A stretch of DNA of 35,081 nucleotides from Anaerolineae bacterium (lineage in GTDB: Bacteria > Chloroflexota > Anaerolineae > DRVO01), in NCBI GenBank assembly GCA_013178015.1, contig JABLXR010000042.1:1-35081 (forward strand), given 5' to 3'. Made by a program: the position numbers and the translations under genes. This document shows positions 19,590-26,182 of this stretch, one piece after another; position 1 is the first letter of the stretch; each line of letters opens with the position of its first letter. Below the pieces are notes generated by a model. The model was not told the origin of the DNA. It was given only the letters and a program-made list of their open reading frames with translations, and ran no database searches.

Positions 19590-19673
19590 AGGGAAGGCTC
19601 GGAGCGACAGTGCTGGTCGGCATGTGTCCCTCCGATCCTGAGCTGCTAACCTGCCGAGCGTGAGGTGATCCGT

Positions 19674-20222
19674 ATGAAGTTCGAAGCCTACTCGTACCGT
19701 ATCAGCTCCCGGTTTGGCAGTCGGGTGTGGGTGGAAGTCCTGGATGGACAGGTGTCGGTGACTGGCCCGAGAGTTCCCGTCCCGGCGTACCGGCTGTGGC
19801 TAGGCATTCAGGCATTGCTGCTGGCGGCGACACTGCCCCTGCTCCTGCTGGGGCTCCTGCGGCGGAGCGGTGGCGCTATTGCGGCTGGACTGAGTACGCT
19901 GCTACTACACCTTGCCGTGGGCGGCTTCGGCGCCGGCTGCATGTGGGAGGCGATGAACCTCAATGCCTTTAGCGAGGGCAAGCGGGGAGAGACGCAGTCC
20001 TTCCCGGTCAGCGCCGTGCGCGACGTGCGCATCGGGCGGGGATGGGCTCGCAAGGGGCTGTGGCTGGTCTTACTTCCCTACGTGCGAAGGATAGACGCCC
20101 TGGCCGAAGGGCATGCCGTCTCTTTCGAGGCCCCCGACGACGGGACGGGCGCTAACGCCGTGTACGCCCTGCACATGCGCACCCCGGAGGACGCGCTGCA
20201 ACTGGTCGCCATTCTCCGATAG
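19674..20222 (+). CDS. Membrane protein of unknown function
   Basis: A 182-residue protein. A short beta-rich N-terminus is followed by two hydrophobic segments (about 41-60 and 64-90). A cytoplasmic C-terminal domain then shows a pattern of beta strands (VSAVRDVRIGRGW, VSFEAPDD). The layout resembles small membrane proteins with a PH-like domain, but I cannot assign a family. ATG 19674 has GAGGTG 7 nt upstream; GTG 19665 is an in-frame alternative. It precedes the pyruvyl transferase operon by 111 bp and may be separate, since that operon has its own promoter. Confidence 0.65.
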   Translation: MKFEAYSYRISSRFGSRVWVEVLDGQVSVTGPRVPVPAYRLWLGIQALLLAATLPLLLLGLLRRSGGAIAAGLSTLLLHLAVGGFGAGCMWEAMNLNAFSEGKRGETQSFPVSAVRDVRIGRGWARKGLWLVLLPYVRRIDALAEGHAVSFEAPDDGTGANAVYALHMRTPEDALQLVAILR

Positions 20223-20292: not shown

Positions 20293-20301
20293 TGGTATAG
20301 T
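20293..20301 (+). promoter_or_regulatory. Extended -10 promoter of the four-gene operon
   Basis: TGG-TATAGT at 20293-20301 is an extended -10 element with a five-of-six hexamer. Transcription would start near 20308, about 26 nt before ATG 20334. The -35 is weak (TGCCCA). Confidence 0.5.
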
Positions 20302-20333: not shown

Positions 20334-21578
20334 ATGGACCGGTCGGCGCGGCGCGATGGGCCGAGAGTGCTTCTGGTAGGTTATAACGGGGCCAACAACA
20401 CCGGCGCGGAGGCGCTGTTGCAGGCCGACCTCCGGGATTTGCGGTCACTGCTGCCGGATGCCCAAGTCACGGTGCCCACTCTGAGCGAGGCCAACCTGCG
20501 CCGCTACCTCAAGGAGGGTCCCGACCTCCGTATCGAGCCCATGCCCACCATCTTCTTCCGCAAGGTGGAGCGCCTGGTTCGCGATCACGACTTGGTGATG
20601 CTGGTGGAGGGCAGCGCCTATATGGACACCTGGACCTCCGCCCTGCTGTGGTACTTCCTCTGGGCCACTCACTGCGCCCGCAGCCTGGGCAAGCCCTGCC
20701 TGGCCTACGCCGTGGACGCCGGAGATCTCTCGCCCCTGAACCGGTGGCTGGTGCGTCGGGTGGCCAGCCGGACCGGCCTCATCGTCACCCGGGCTCGAGC
20801 GGCGGCCGAGCGGCTTCGATCCTGTGGGGTCACAGCCCCAATCGAGGTGACTGCCGACAACGCCCTCACCTTCGAGGCCAACCCCGAGGACGAGGGTTGG
20901 GTAGAGCGGGATTGGTCGGCGGCCAAGAAGGGAGCCATTGGCCTGGCGGTGGTAGACTTTCACCTCTGGCCGGTGGTGATCCGTCCCTGGGGGCGCCGCG
21001 AGGACTGCTATAGGTGGCCCTACTACTTCAGCCGCTCCCCTGAGCGCGAGCAGGTCACTGCCCGCCTGGCCCAGGGCTATGCCGACCTGGCCGACGGCCT
21101 GATCGGGGAGCAGGGCCGCCCGGTGGCACTCATCTGCATGGAGCAACTGGATGAGCCGCTAGCCCGTCGCATCCATGGGCTCATGAAACATCCAGAGGCG
21201 GTGCGGGTCTTCTCCTCCAGTCAGTGCGACGCCTCCCAGATGACAGCACTGCTGCAGACGCTGGGGGTCTTGGCGACCTCACGCTACCACGCCGCCATCC
21301 TATCTCTCCGGGCCCACGTCCCGCAGGTGGCGGTCGGCCACGACCTGCGACTCAAGAGCCTGTATGGGGAACTGGGCCTGGAGGACGACTACTTCCTGGA
21401 TCCGGACTGCCCCGACCTGTGGTCCCGGCTGCAAGAGAGGCTGCGCCAACTCCTGGCCGACCCCGAGCCGATGCGGGAGAGGCTTCGCCGCGGTCACGAG
21501 GACCTGGCCGCCCGAGCCGCTCAGAACCGGCCGCTGCTGCGCCGGTTCCTGACCGAGCACGGCTGGGCGCCCGCGTGA
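20334..21578 (+). CDS. Polysaccharide pyruvyl transferase family protein
   Basis: A 414-residue member of the polysaccharide pyruvyl transferase family (CsaB/WcaK-like). These enzymes add a pyruvate ketal from phosphoenolpyruvate to sugars of exopolysaccharide or cell-wall polymers. The N-terminal motif VGYNGANNTGAEALLQADLRD corresponds to the family's GYYG..N.GDEA segment. VMLVEGSAYMD follows at about 90, and the C-terminal half shows TSRYHAAILSLRAHVPQVAV, the conserved R-x-H-x3-S-x6-P region. ATG 20334 has AGGGGAG upstream. Its TGA overlaps the GTG start of the next gene (GTGA), so production of the two proteins is coupled. It is likely cytoplasmic and acts on lipid-linked sugars. Confidence 0.85.
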   Translation: MDRSARRDGPRVLLVGYNGANNTGAEALLQADLRDLRSLLPDAQVTVPTLSEANLRRYLKEGPDLRIEPMPTIFFRKVERLVRDHDLVMLVEGSAYMDTWTSALLWYFLWATHCARSLGKPCLAYAVDAGDLSPLNRWLVRRVASRTGLIVTRARAAAERLRSCGVTAPIEVTADNALTFEANPEDEGWVERDWSAAKKGAIGLAVVDFHLWPVVIRPWGRREDCYRWPYYFSRSPEREQVTARLAQGYADLADGLIGEQGRPVALICMEQLDEPLARRIHGLMKHPEAVRVFSSSQCDASQMTALLQTLGVLATSRYHAAILSLRAHVPQVAVGHDLRLKSLYGELGLEDDYFLDPDCPDLWSRLQERLRQLLADPEPMRERLRRGHEDLAARAAQNRPLLRRFLTEHGWAPA

Positions 21579-24358
21579 CCGACACCCTACTGCTGACGGG
21601 GGCGACCGGCTTCCTGGGAACGCAGGTGGCCCGCTGGCTCGTGGGCAACACCGACTGCCGGCTGATTGCTCTGGTACGGGCTGACGACCGGGAGGGAGCC
21701 GAGCGCCACCTGGCTCGTTCCTGGTGGGACTGGCCGGAACTGGCCGGCGCTATCGGCGACCGGGTGGAGGTCCTTCGCGGTGACCTGACCCTCGACCGGC
21801 TTGGTCTCGACGGGGAGACCTACCGGTACCTCGTCCGCCGCCTGACCTGCGTGGTGCACGCCGCTGCGGGCCTCCGGTTCGACGCTTCCGAGGCCGAACT
21901 CAGGCGGGTGAACGTCGAGGGCACGGCCCGGCTTCTGGAGCTGGCCCAAGCGGCGCATGCCGACCACGGCCTGACTCGGTTTGCCCACCTGTCCACCGCT
22001 TACGTCGCCGGTCGGAGGGAGGGCGACGTCGCCGAGGCCGACCTGGGCGAGGGCGCCGGCTTCCACGGCGCCTACGAGAGGACCAAGTACGAAGCCGAGA
22101 GGCTGGTTCGGGGCGCGGGCCTGCCGACCTCGGTCTTTCGCCCCGGATTCGTGGTGGGGGACTCGCACACGGGCGAGATCAAGACGTTCAATACCCTATA
22201 CTACCCGCTGCGGCTCTATCTCAACGGCCGGCTGCCCGTCCTGCCGTGCCGACCCGACCTTCGGCTCAACCTGGTGCCGGTGGACTACGTGGCCGAGGCC
22301 GTGGGCCGGCTGACGTTGGACCCCCGGGCCGAAGGGCTGACCTTCCACCTCACCGCCCCCACGGAATCGCTCCCCACCGCTCGGGAGTTGGTGGCGTTCG
22401 TGCGGGGGTGGGCGAGGGAGACCTTGGGGCTGTCCCTGCCACGGCCCTGGTTCGCTCCCTTCCTGCTATCTCTGGCGCCGGCCGCCGGAAGGCTTCCTGG
22501 GCGCACCCTGACCAACCTGTCGGCGTTGGCGCCGTACTTCGGCGAGCGGCGTCGCTTCGTCCGCACCAACACCGACCGCCTCCTGGGTCCATACCGGCTC
22601 GACTGGCGCCAGTTCCTGCCCCGGCTGCTGGAGTTCGCCGCCTATCAGGGGTTTCTGCATCGCTCCGATCGGACGGTACAGGAACAGCTCCTCTTCCGCC
22701 TGGGCAGCCGGTCCCGGCCAGTTCGCTACCACGACATCGTCCAGGGGCGGCTGGTCTCCCGCAGCGCCGCCGAGATCCGGGAGGACATCCTGACGACCGC
22801 GGGGGCAATGCGGGTGCTGGGGGTGGAGCCGGGTGACCGGGTGGCTGTGGTGGGGCTCAACAGCACCCGCTCTCTCATCCTCGACGCGGCCATCGGTCTG
22901 GTGGGTGCGGTGAGCGTGCCTCTCTACTACACCAGTCCTCCCGCCGACATCCGCTCCATCCTGGCGGCCAGTGGGGCGCGGGTCCTGTTCGTGGGAGCCC
23001 CTGCCGTGCTCGCCCGCCTGGACGAGTTGGAGAGCCCGGTGCCGGTGGTCTCCTTCGGGCGCGAAGGCGCCGGCGGGGGTGCGGCTCGAGCGATGGCGTG
23101 GGAGGACTTCCTGGCCCGAGGGCGCGGCGTGGAGGTCGAGCGGACGGCTCCGGTAGGCTTCGGGGACGCGGCCACCCTGCGCTACACCTCCGGCACCACT
23201 GGTCGGCCGCGGGGAGTGGTCTTCCGGCACGAGCACCTGCGCTACATGGCCGAGTCGCTTGCCTCCCTGCCCCCCTGGCGGGTGCGCCATCGAAGGGTAG
23301 TCTACCTCTCCTTCCTGCCCATGAACCACGTGGTCGAGGGCATCCTGGCCACCTACTCCCCCTACTACGTCCCCGCCCCGCTGGACCTTTACTTCCTGGA
23401 GGACCTGCGGGAGGTCGCCCGGGCGCTGCCCGCCGTGCGGCCGACCATGTTCTTCTCCGTGCCGCGGGTATACGAGAAGCTGTGGGAGCGGTTTGAGACC
23501 AGTGGGCCGGGCCGGGTGTACCTGCGAGCCTCCGGGGCAAGGCGGCGCCTGCTGCGGCCCCTGGTGCGGGCCGCGTTCCTGCGGCGGGCAGGGCTCGACC
23601 GCTGCGCCCAGCTCATCGTGGGCTCCGCCCCCTCAGGCGAGGGGCTGCTGCACGCCTATGGCGAACTGGGGATCGAGCTGCACAACGCCTACGGGCTGAC
23701 CGAGGCGCCCCTCGTCACCCTGAATCGAGTAGGGGCCAACCGCCTGGGCACCGTGGGCCGCCCCCTGCCCCACACCCAGGTGCGCATCGCCAACGATGGC
23801 GAGGTGATGGTGCGCGGACCCCAGGTGACACCGGGCTACTTCGAGGCCCAATCCGAGCCTCCGGTGCGAGACGGCTGGTTGTTCACCGGCGATCTGGGGC
23901 GGCTGTCCGACGATGGTTTCCTCATCCTGGAGGGCCGCAAGAAGGAACTCATGATCACCTCCTACGGCAAGAACGTGCACCCGTCACGGGTGGAGGCGCG
24001 GCTGCAGCAGGTGCCTGGAGTGACGGAGGCCCTCCTGGTGGGAGACGGTCGGCCGTACTGCGCTGCCCTGCTGTGGGTGGAGGGGGTGGTTCTCACCCCC
24101 GAGGATAAGGCACTGCTGGATGCAGCTGTTGCCCGGGCGAACCGGGACCTGTCTCACCCAGAGCAGATCAAGGCCTGGGCGGTGCTCCACCACGACCTTA
24201 GCGTGGCGGGAGGTGAGCTCACGCCGAACCTCAAGCTGCGGCGGACCGAGGTGATCAGGCGGCACGCGGGGGTGGTGTCGGCCCTCTACGGCCAGGGAGA
24301 GCCGCCGGATTCCGTCCTTCACCTGGGGCGAGTGGCGCGGGAGGTGCTCGGTGGCTAG
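21575..24358 (+). CDS. Reductase-adenylation fusion: NAD(P) fatty acyl reductase-like domain plus long-chain acyl-CoA synthetase-like domain
   Basis: A 927-residue two-domain protein. Residues about 1-370 form an extended short-chain dehydrogenase of the thioester reductase / male-sterility type: GATGFLG at 9-15, HLSTAYVAG, and catalytic Y167-x3-K171 (YERTK). Residues about 415-900 form an adenylate-forming domain closest to long-chain acyl-CoA synthetases: TSGTTGRPRG from 538, NAYGLTEAP, FTGDLGRLSDDG at about 770, GRKKELMITSYGKNV, and K887 in NLKLRR for the A10 lysine. No phosphopantetheine carrier motif (GxDSL) is visible. In carboxylic acid reductases the order is adenylation-carrier-reductase; here it is reversed and carrier-less. 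A likely role is to activate a fatty acid and reduce the acyl thioester to aldehyde or alcohol. The GTG start overlaps the preceding stop, and the stop overlaps the next start. Confidence 0.87.
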   Translation: MTDTLLLTGATGFLGTQVARWLVGNTDCRLIALVRADDREGAERHLARSWWDWPELAGAIGDRVEVLRGDLTLDRLGLDGETYRYLVRRLTCVVHAAAGLRFDASEAELRRVNVEGTARLLELAQAAHADHGLTRFAHLSTAYVAGRREGDVAEADLGEGAGFHGAYERTKYEAERLVRGAGLPTSVFRPGFVVGDSHTGEIKTFNTLYYPLRLYLNGRLPVLPCRPDLRLNLVPVDYVAEAVGRLTLDPRAEGLTFHLTAPTESLPTARELVAFVRGWARETLGLSLPRPWFAPFLLSLAPAAGRLPGRTLTNLSALAPYFGERRRFVRTNTDRLLGPYRLDWRQFLPRLLEFAAYQGFLHRSDRTVQEQLLFRLGSRSRPVRYHDIVQGRLVSRSAAEIREDILTTAGAMRVLGVEPGDRVAVVGLNSTRSLILDAAIGLVGAVSVPLYYTSPPADIRSILAASGARVLFVGAPAVLARLDELESPVPVVSFGREGAGGGAARAMAWEDFLARGRGVEVERTAPVGFGDAATLRYTSGTTGRPRGVVFRHEHLRYMAESLASLPPWRVRHRRVVYLSFLPMNHVVEGILATYSPYYVPAPLDLYFLEDLREVARALPAVRPTMFFSVPRVYEKLWERFETSGPGRVYLRASGARRRLLRPLVRAAFLRRAGLDRCAQLIVGSAPSGEGLLHAYGELGIELHNAYGLTEAPLVTLNRVGANRLGTVGRPLPHTQVRIANDGEVMVRGPQVTPGYFEAQSEPPVRDGWLFTGDLGRLSDDGFLILEGRKKELMITSYGKNVHPSRVEARLQQVPGVTEALLVGDGRPYCAALLWVEGVVLTPEDKALLDAAVARANRDLSHPEQIKAWAVLHHDLSVAGGELTPNLKLRRTEVIRRHAGVVSALYGQGEPPDSVLHLGRVAREVLGG

Positions 24359-24893
24359 CCCGCTACTTGCCCTTCTCAGCGCCTACACCCCCCAATGGGT
24401 CAGGCGGCGCCAACTGGTCCGGCTCCTCCAGGTGACGGCAGAGGCATTCGAGGTTCCCCTGCCGACTCAGCGCCGTAGCTGTCCAGAGCTGCTGGAGGAC
24501 TACGCCGCCTTAACTGCGCGCCAGGCAGCGGAGGCGCTCCGGTCCGGCCAGGACCTGGCGCCGATCCGGGAACGGCTGTACCGCGGGGCGCGGGGAATGG
24601 GATGCGATTTGAGGCACTGGCTGCACGTCCGCACCCCCACCCAGGTGATGGCGGCTGCCCGCCTGGCCTACCGTGCTCTGGGGATAGACCTGAAGGGCTT
24701 CCCCGACGGGAGCATCGTCGTGAGCCGCTGCTGTTTCGCCCGGCACTACTCCCCGGAGGTATGCCGGCTCATCTCGGCGCTGGACGCCGGGCTACTGGCG
24801 GGTTTGTCGGGCGGGGGCAGGCTGGAGTTCTCCCAGCGGATCACCGAGGGCGCGGCCTGTTGCCTGGCGAGGCTGGAGCCACTGCCGCAGTGA
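24351..24893 (+). CDS. Cysteine-rich protein of unknown function
   Basis: A 180-residue, mostly helical protein. Cysteines lie at 44, 84, 127, 128, 138, 170 and 171. The C-terminal half (SRCCFARHYSPEVC, a spacer of about 30, then TEGAACC) recalls the cysteine spacing of the ATC hydrolase-like / 4-vinyl-reductase-like group, but the match is by eye and weak. No signal peptide or membrane segment is obvious. GTG 24351 is preceded by GAGGTG at 4 nt and lies within the end of the fusion gene (8-bp overlap). Its own stop overlaps the GTG of the oxidase gene. Sandwiched between acyl-activating and alcohol-oxidising enzymes, it may bind or hand on a metal centre or an acyl intermediate. Confidence 0.72.
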   Translation: MASPLLALLSAYTPQWVRRRQLVRLLQVTAEAFEVPLPTQRRSCPELLEDYAALTARQAAEALRSGQDLAPIRERLYRGARGMGCDLRHWLHVRTPTQVMAAARLAYRALGIDLKGFPDGSIVVSRCCFARHYSPEVCRLISALDAGLLAGLSGGGRLEFSQRITEGAACCLARLEPLPQ

Positions 24894-26182
24894 AGACGGC
24901 CGTCGTGGTGGGGAGCGGCGCCGGTGGTGCCGCCGTGGCCCGAGAGCTTCAGGGCCGCTTCCAGGTGACCGTGCTGGAGGCCGGAGGCGAGTTCCGGCCC
25001 TTCCCTGTATCGCTGGCCGCGGCCGAACGCATCAAGCGAACGGGTCTGCTGGTTGACGAGCGCCTCATACGGCCGCTCTACCCCGCCATGCAGATCCGCA
25101 AGACGCGCGAGGGCCTGGTGCTCGTGAATGGGGTGGGCACCGGGGGCACCACCACCGTATCTACCGGCAACGCCCTCCGATTGGATGCCGGCGTGCGGGC
25201 TATCGGAGTGGACCTGGACCGGGAGTACGCGGAAGTGGCGCACGAGGTGCCTATTACCGCGGCACACGAGCGGCTCTGGCGCGAGCCCACGCGCGAGCTG
25301 TTCCGCGCCTGCGCCGAGCTGGACCTGCGGCCCCGGGCCATGCCCAAGATGGGCCGCTACGATCGTTGCGCTAACTGCGGCCGCTGCGTTCTGGGCTGCA
25401 GGTACGGCGTGAAGTGGGACGCCCGGGCCCACCTGGCCGATGCACTGCAGAGGGGGGCGACTCTGCTCACCCGGCACCGAGTGGAGCGGGTGGTGATCGA
25501 GGGAGACACGGCCACCGGGGTGGTGGCGCGGCACTGCGGCCTGCGGCGGTTCTTCCCCGCCAACCTGGTGGTACTGGCAGCGGGAGGCCTGGCTACTCCC
25601 GTCATACTGGAGAGGTCTCGCCTGGCCTGTGAGCCCACCCTCTTCGTGGACCCGGTGCTCTGTGTGGCTGCCCGACTGCCCGGTGCTCGACAGAGCCGGG
25701 AGATGCCGATGCCCTTCTACGTCGAGGGTGACGGTTACATCATCTCTCCCTACTTCGACTACCTGAGCTTCTTCTTCACCCGGTCCTGGCGCCATCCGGC
25801 CCAGGACATCGTCTCCCTCATGATCAAGCTCGCCGACGATGCGGTGGGCCGTGTAGCCGGCACCCGGGTGGACAAGCTGCTCACCTCTGCCGACCGGCGC
25901 CGCCTGGATGAGGCCGCCTCGCTCTGCCGCCGCCTGCTGGCCCGTATCGGCATCCGGCCCGGGGACACCTTCCTGGGGACGCTGAATGCCGGCCATCCCG
26001 GTGGCATGCTGCCTCTCACCGAACGAGAGGCCGGGACCCTTCACCACGACCGGCTCCCCCCCAACCTGTACGTGGCCGATGCCACCCTGCTTCCGCGCTC
26101 TTTGGGCGGCCCGCCCATCCTCACCGTGCTGGCCCTCGCCAAGCGCGTGGCCCGAGCGGCGGCGGAGCAGGTGGGGGAGTAG
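24890..26182 (+). CDS. GMC-type FAD oxidoreductase with ferredoxin-like cysteine motif
   Basis: A 430-residue flavoprotein of the glucose-methanol-choline family, closest in layout to long-chain alcohol oxidases. The FAD-binding start VVVGSGAGGAAVAREL (GSGAGG at 8-13) and VLEAGGEF are followed by NGVGTGGTTTVSTGNALR. Next comes C160-x2-C163-x2-C166-x3-C170 (RCANCGRCVLGCRYG), the spacing of a 4Fe-4S ligand set. The C-terminus shows LNAGHPGGM, with H in the catalytic region, and YVADATLLPRSLGGPP. At 430 residues it is shorter than fungal and plant fatty-alcohol oxidases and has no membrane segment. The GTG start overlaps the previous stop (GTGA). A role in oxidising a long-chain alcohol made by the upstream fusion protein is inferred from context. 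Confidence 0.87.
   Translation: MKTAVVVGSGAGGAAVARELQGRFQVTVLEAGGEFRPFPVSLAAAERIKRTGLLVDERLIRPLYPAMQIRKTREGLVLVNGVGTGGTTTVSTGNALRLDAGVRAIGVDLDREYAEVAHEVPITAAHERLWREPTRELFRACAELDLRPRAMPKMGRYDRCANCGRCVLGCRYGVKWDARAHLADALQRGATLLTRHRVERVVIEGDTATGVVARHCGLRRFFPANLVVLAAGGLATPVILERSRLACEPTLFVDPVLCVAARLPGARQSREMPMPFYVEGDGYIISPYFDYLSFFFTRSWRHPAQDIVSLMIKLADDAVGRVAGTRVDKLLTSADRRRLDEAASLCRRLLARIGIRPGDTFLGTLNAGHPGGMLPLTEREAGTLHHDRLPPNLYVADATLLPRSLGGPPILTVLALAKRVARAAAEQVGE

Follow-up and report, generated by a model that had tools for sequence, protein, structure and literature searches.

Four overlapping genes in the window, the 35,081-nucleotide stretch of Anaerolineae DNA analysed here, form one conserved, co-inherited unit that is a new combination assembled from known families. 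The four genes recur together in other genomes and are coupled stop to start, the catalytic residues of gene 2 are intact, and genes 3 and 4 are fused in one genome. We read the cassette as a route in which a carboxylic acid would be activated and reduced, bound by the gene-3 protein, oxidised by an Fe-S GMC flavoprotein and finished by a transferase of the polysaccharide pyruvyl transferase (PPT) fold, a reading that we consider plausible, if somewhat short of probable. As proposed, the cassette would provide uncultured Chloroflexota with a fatty-acid reduction pathway contained within four genes.

Layout and occurrence of the cassette

All four genes lie on the forward strand. Gene 1 (P0001; 20334-21578, ATG start, 414 aa) encodes a divergent, PPT-like relative of PF04230; gene 2 (21575-24358, GTG start, 927 aa) a reductase/ligase; gene 3 (P0003; 24351-24893, GTG start, 180 aa) a small Cys-containing protein with a predicted Bet3/TRAPP/V4R fold; and gene 4 (P0004; 24890-26182, GTG start, 430 aa) a short GMC-type FAD oxidoreductase. 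An earlier note on this DNA had described four stop-to-start overlapping genes behind an extended −10 promoter. Its coordinates and all three overlaps are exact in the sequence: GTGA at 21575-21578 between genes 1 and 2, 8 bp at 24351-24358 between genes 2 and 3, and GTGA at 24890-24893 between genes 3 and 4. The GTG starts of genes 2-4 were set by this coupling, the mechanical open reading frames of genes 2 and 4 reaching further upstream. The promoter fared less well: the −10-like string TGgTATAGT is present before gene 1 (20293-20301, forward strand), but a promoter and terminator scan of the region returned neither a sigma-70-type promoter nor a terminator, so the extended −10 promoter is a string match only. 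None of the four cassette proteins contains a strongly hydrophobic, transmembrane-like stretch. The gene directly upstream of the cassette (19665-20222, 185 aa) has no Pfam or NCBIfam match, encodes a hydrophobic stretch at about residues 47-65, and has no homologue seen adjoining other cassettes.

Besides the window, five genomes hold the set, in two cases spread over a pair of contigs, and one more holds part of it. Complete sets in the same order and on the same strand are found in Chloroflexi S1bins97 (L021/L024), in G179 (L078) and in Spirochaetes bacterium RBG_16_67_19 (L026); the set is divided between two contigs in Chloroflexi AS06rmzACSIP_605 (L022 and L023) and in a metagenome-assembled genome (MAG) labelled Methanomassiliicoccus DR5_59_6, where L033 carries the PPT gene and the start of the reductase and L085 carries the rest of gene 2 with genes 3 and 4. 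G244 (L079) has the partial set, genes 3 and 4, at the edge of a contig. These loci were reached by several routes. A search of 60 relatives returned two near-full-length gene-2 homologues at ~61% identity from another family of the same class; the whole set, in order, is present in both genomes, in one case spread over two contigs with identically overlapping ends. A genome-wide scan found the Spirochaetes genome (57-62% identity, ~51% for gene 3) and likewise added the MAG labelled Methanomassiliicoccus, and a gene-3 profile search added G179 with all four genes and G244 with genes 3 and 4. The cassette thus occurs in further families of Chloroflexota and in two MAGs, one of Spirochaetes and one labelled archaeal. 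We rejected the last as proof of archaeal occurrence owing to the poor fit in composition of its contigs: the tetranucleotide profiles of L033 and L085, both short pieces, match the archaeal bin poorly, which reflects either recent transfer or contamination.

Within these cassettes a gene-1 homologue stands first wherever that position is covered, most of the other sets also have tight or overlapping junctions, and the four genes diverge in step with one another (correlation r = 0.74 to 0.98, ten pairs, five genomes). Mis-assembly was rejected on the equal junctions in other assemblies. The earlier proposal that the four genes act as one unit, which turned on finding them together in related genomes, therefore gains support: the set is present in other genomes, and conservation, co-inheritance and correlated divergence point the same way.

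The cassette is rare. It was present in 5 of 396 genomes sampled in the class (a sixth candidate, a gene-3 homologue in G007, was rejected as a flavodoxin false positive), in 1 of 400 in the phylum sample, that one being the window's own genome, and in 1 of 247 in the phylum of L026, again its own genome. No relative of gene 3 was found in viral contigs. Flanking genes are mostly unrelated between genomes: L021 has dynamin, VWA and transporter genes, and the window has solute-binding, kinase, beta-lactamase-family, HDOD and sulfatase genes. This rare, patchy and discrete distribution suggests a transferred cassette.

The reductase/ligase and the pyruvyl-transferase relative

The first half of gene 2 (21575-22684) corresponds to an NAD(P)-dependent thioester or acyl-CoA reductase of the SDR type. 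It matches PF07993 (NAD_binding_4; E = 3e-51, 174 bits, cut-off 20.1) and contains the family's Rossmann TGxxGxxG, Ser/Thr and YxxxK motifs as TGATGFLG, S140-T141 and Y167xxxK171; its nearest solved relatives are the thioester-reductase domains of MxaA, a polyketide synthase (PKS), a nonribosomal peptide synthetase (NRPS) and carboxylic acid reductase (CAR). The second half (22685-24358) is an adenylation domain of the long-chain acyl-CoA-synthetase type, matching PF00501 (AMP-binding; E = 1e-52, 180 bits) and PF23562 (AMP-binding_C_3; E = 5e-9), both above cut-off, with FadD13 as its nearest solved relative. Its core motifs and catalytic Lys, K887, are conserved, as in long-chain acyl-adenylating enzymes, and AMP-binding_C_3 closes the protein at residue 907 of 927. 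Across the homologues covering these sites, the Rossmann, Ser-Thr, YxxxK and adenylation motifs and the C-terminal Lys are all conserved. The acyl activation and reduction read from this gene in the earlier note is well founded on domain models, solved relatives and conserved motifs.

Two described enzymes frame its likely mode of action. Gene 2 resembles CAR in combining adenylation with thioester-reductase chemistry but differs from it in its reversed domain order and its lack of a phosphopantetheine carrier: Pfam gave no carrier match between or after the two domains, the CAR model scored 167 bits against a cut-off of 1300, and the adenylation-carrier-reductase order that defines the family is absent. 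Without that carrier, the enzyme probably works through CoA, and from its sequence it may act like a carrier-free carboxylic acid reductase. Among described architectures, ElbD of the Myxococcus xanthus ether-lipid operon comes closest (PMC9131029). As in ElbD, a reductase domain precedes an acyl-CoA-synthetase domain in one chain, but the carrier and acyltransferase that follow the synthetase in ElbD are missing from gene 2. At the level of the operon, the cassette lacks the carrier, the acyltransferase and the elbB/elbE partners, and it carries in addition a protein of predicted Bet3 fold, a GMC protein of the putative Fe-S type and a relative of the PPT enzymes. Given the absence of carrier and acyltransferase and the different partners, we do not class the cassette as an elb operon; a fatty aldehyde of the same type may nonetheless come from it.

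Gene 1 had been assigned to the polysaccharide pyruvyl transferases, and in its score it belongs there: PF04230 matches with E = 8e-13 (49.3 bits, cut-off 25.3). The CsaB model also aligns (E = 2e-29), at 102.6 bits, far under its cut-off of 213.1, and a search of solved structures gave nothing meaningful. The family's motif set is where the assignment weakens. PPT enzymes carry N-x-G-D, R-x-x-x-(S/T) and a His (PMC10629545), of which gene 1 keeps the N, G, R and H only. The first motif reads N22-T-G-A-E26 (20397-20411), with Ala for Asp, and the second R153-x-x-x-A157 (20790-20804), with Ala for Ser/Thr; the His, conserved across PF04230, lies in R317-Y-H319 (21282-21290), where it and the Arg are invariant in the cassette homologues. 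We take R317 as the second Arg on the phosphoenolpyruvate (PEP) side. The changes characterise the whole cassette clade, which has N-T-G-A-E (Ser for Ala in L033) and R-x-x-x-A, whereas other PPT relatives from the class read G-D-E and R-D-x-x-S (R-D-x-E-S in one). Compared with CsaB, WbbZ and Pvg1p, then, gene 1 shares the PF04230 family and retains N-x-G, Arg and His, but its clade has lost the Asp and the Ser/Thr of two motifs.

What this loss means can be approached through Pvg1p, in which D106A nearly abolishes activity and a model places two Arg in contact with PEP and an Asp in contact with the sugar (PMC10629545). We infer that this sugar-contacting Asp is the one lost in the cassette clade; if so, the clade may still use PEP but transfer to another acceptor. 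Alternatively, it may no longer catalyse the transfer. With the motif Asp and Ser/Thr both replaced by Ala, pyruvylation of an ordinary glycan is doubtful, and the pyruvyl transfer to a surface glycan suggested earlier loses its footing. Gene 1 instead marks a pyruvyl-transferase clade with a probably changed acceptor.

The small protein of predicted Bet3 fold and the GMC flavoprotein

The gene-3 protein of the window had no match in Pfam or NCBIfam at E = 0.1. An AlphaFold2 (AF2) model built with three sequences in the alignment (pLDDT 83, pTM 0.82) predicts a ligand-binding fold of the Bet3/TRAPP/V4R/H-NOX type. Foldseek ranks palmitate-bound TRAPPC3 chains highest for this model, some designed proteins being interspersed among them, and VIA-align returned TPC6, Bet3, BcsD, PoxR, MopR, a V4R protein and H-NOX at Z = 8-10.8; PoxR and MopR are Bet3-fold phenol sensors. 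The similarity of this predicted model covers most of the Bet3/V4R domain (TPC6/Bet3: Z = 10.8, rmsd 2.8 over 130 residues). The Bet3 fold is also used by sensors and scaffolds such as H-NOX and BcsD, so lipid binding is not implied by the fold alone.

Comparison of profiles places gene 3 near the ATC_hydrolase family (PF14196). By its curated cut-off of 28.1 bits gene 3 falls outside this family, the window protein scoring 13.3 bits and the L085 homologue 27.0 bits (E = 8.7e-6), just under the threshold. An hhalign comparison of seven gene-3 proteins with 13 PF14196 proteins supports a remote relationship (probability 90%, E = 1.7e-6, 140 columns; probability for an unrelated control, 0.1%). 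Three Cys are invariant in gene 3 (C127, C138 and C171, within a span at 24729-24863 that also includes D145, R163 and T165; seven-sequence alignment; a separate alignment of the Cys region left L085 out), and this pattern is common to PF14196 members. Secondary structure and the conservation of three Cys had already tied PF14196, V4R and HNOB domains together (PMC5847659), and cavities in Bet3/V4R-type folds hold hydrophobic ligands (PMC10933270). The earlier note had left gene 3 as an unassigned Cys-rich protein; the Cys are borne out, and a fold can now be predicted. Gene 3 is thus alike in predicted fold to TRAPP/Bet3, V4R, XylR_N, H-NOX and ATC_hydrolase, and differs from the Bet3/ATC_hydrolase superfamily in being tied genetically, and once physically, to a GMC enzyme. 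The physical tie is in L026, the Spirochaetes locus, where genes 3 and 4 run on in a single frame, uninterrupted by a stop codon and lacking an evident start between them; the fusion is known from this one MAG. It supports a link between a Bet3/V4R ligand-binding fold and a metabolic enzyme. Away from the cassette, two more ATC_hydrolase (PF14196) genes are found in the window's genome (G000), on contigs C4 and C5 (L131, L135).

Gene 4 is a GMC protein by its PF00732 match (E = 7e-18, 65.7 bits, cut-off 23), its G-x-GAGG motif and a C-terminal active-site His, H369, invariant in cassette homologues. Only generic GMC models match it in any library; no model specific to long-chain alcohol oxidase (FAO) in Pfam or NCBIfam does. 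Four Cys, C160xxC163xxC166xxxC170 (25367-25399), are invariant in seven cassette homologues in an alignment that includes non-cassette relatives. The 3Fe-4S cluster of FAD glucose dehydrogenase is held by C212, C218 and C222 (PMC6719666), and C160, C166 and C170 reproduce this Cys-x5-Cys-x3-Cys spacing, making them putative cluster ligands; a weak profile match (E ~0.01) puts C160 on residue 212. A single-sequence structure model of gene 4 reached a pLDDT of 31.5, too low for use. A cluster of this kind, inferred from motif spacing, would imply an acceptor other than oxygen. On its sequence, gene 4 is probably an iron-sulfur dehydrogenase rather than an oxidase, and we set aside its earlier description as long-chain-alcohol-oxidase-like.

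The likeness to the gamma-alpha-beta FAD glucose dehydrogenase complex of Burkholderia cepacia extends to a GMC protein with Cys-x5-Cys-x3-Cys at the same place and to a small partner protein. The two systems differ in the position of the fourth Cys (C163 in gene 4, C213 in FAD glucose dehydrogenase), in the fold of the partner, gene 3 being other than the gamma subunit, and in that the cassette has no cytochrome subunit and no export signal was seen. No cytochrome c subunit gene was found beside gene 4 in the cassettes, whose flanks are unrelated.

A wider family of short GMC proteins occurs without the cassette in nine loci of the same class (L107-L115). Such relatives, detected in 18 Anaerolineae-type genomes, were rejected as cassette carriers, genes 1-3 being nearby in 0 of the 9 loci examined. 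All four Cys are present in the relative in G008 (L107), and one or more are missing in those of L110, L111 and L114. In L111, L112, L114 and L115 the short GMC gene adjoins a PLP enzyme of the D-cysteine desulfhydrase/CuyA family.

Proposed pathway and competing readings

Our literature search for the family combination, covering open-licence papers, found no description of the four-family gene set, and within that search the earlier statement that no described system has it stands. We propose a laterally mobile, cytosolic lipid-modification cassette. In it, the adenylation half of gene 2 would use ATP to activate a long-chain or similarly hydrophobic carboxylic acid, probably to acyl-CoA, and the reductase half would use NAD(P)H to reduce the thioester to an aldehyde or alcohol. 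Gene 3 would serve as the hydrophobic-ligand-binding partner of gene 4, holding an intermediate or product, and gene 4 would oxidise an alcohol function on the gene-2 product or a conjugate of it, passing electrons from FAD to the Fe-S cluster and not to oxygen. Because re-oxidising the cassette's own reduction product would be futile, the substrate of gene 4 must differ from it. As a finishing step, the PPT-fold transferase of gene 1 would modify the conjugate on an acceptor unlike the usual sugar. The proposal extends to the chain length of the ligand, the order of these steps and the product. A further-reaching version, in which an undescribed, transferred lipid module has a Bet3/TRAPP-fold protein physically hand over a long-chain aldehyde or alcohol, the product of a carrier-free acid reductase, to the Fe-S flavoenzyme while a repurposed PPT fold caps it on a non-sugar acceptor, we place on the unlikely side; if true, lipids of a new class would follow, perhaps in an archaeon as well.

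Other readings assign the same genes differently. Ether-lipid synthesis like that of the myxobacterial elb operon, with gene 2 supplying a fatty aldehyde or alcohol and genes 1, 3 and 4 building or trimming an ether-linked head, seems to us unlikely. It draws on the identical reductase-then-acyl-CoA-synthetase order of ElbD (PMC9131029; PMC9426513) and on reported ElbD homologues in Chloroflexota (PMC11868695), but ElbD, compared here by its description, has both the carrier and the acyltransferase that gene 2 lacks, and the cassette contains no elbB- or elbE-like HAD hydrolase or epimerase and no AGPS-like enzyme. We give less credence again to gene 3 as a maturation or stability subunit of the Fe-S GMC enzyme, its three Cys binding Zn or protecting the cluster. 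The small gene directly before the GMC gene, the natural fusion and the invariant Cys would all suit such a role, as would the Cys-containing Zn site known in V4R-type proteins. The gamma (hitchhiker) subunit of FAD glucose dehydrogenase does bind next to the cluster, but for that subunit its describers give only distant matches, all of other kinds (PMC6719666), whereas the gene-3 model resembles Bet3/V4R. With no export signal seen, hitchhiker secretion does not apply.

Lower still we place a pyruvylated surface glycan bearing a long-chain aldehyde, alcohol or acid, for which gene 1 would have to be a true ketal pyruvyl transferase. Its matches to PF04230 and the CsaB model and its retained N-x-G, Arg and His are consistent with this, but in the cassette clade the motif Asp has become Ala or Ser and the Ser/Thr has become Ala where other PPT relatives keep both, the near-inactive D106A variant of Pvg1p (PMC10629545) tells against it if the two Asp are equivalent, as we suppose, and the cassette has no glycosyltransferase. 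Improbable, finally, is the conversion of a non-lipid carboxylic acid (aryl, isoprenoid or polyketide) to a specialised metabolite with gene 3 as ligand sensor: against the patchy distribution typical of specialised metabolism, the nearness of the reductase half to PKS/NRPS release domains and the phenol sensors PoxR and MopR among the structural matches stand the FadD-type adenylation half with its long-chain C-terminal domain and the lack of a regulator or DNA-binding domain in gene 3.

In L033 the cassette has a nitroreductase-family gene upstream, and a zinc alcohol dehydrogenase gene (adh_fam_2; L085, 4803-5792) converges on the cassette end. The only recurring neighbour is an FMN_red gene, directly upstream in L026 (3-563) and L078 (6779-7294) and not found at the same upstream place in the window or L021. 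The two FMN-reductase-like genes are 51% identical, and this gene may be an optional fifth member of the cassette.
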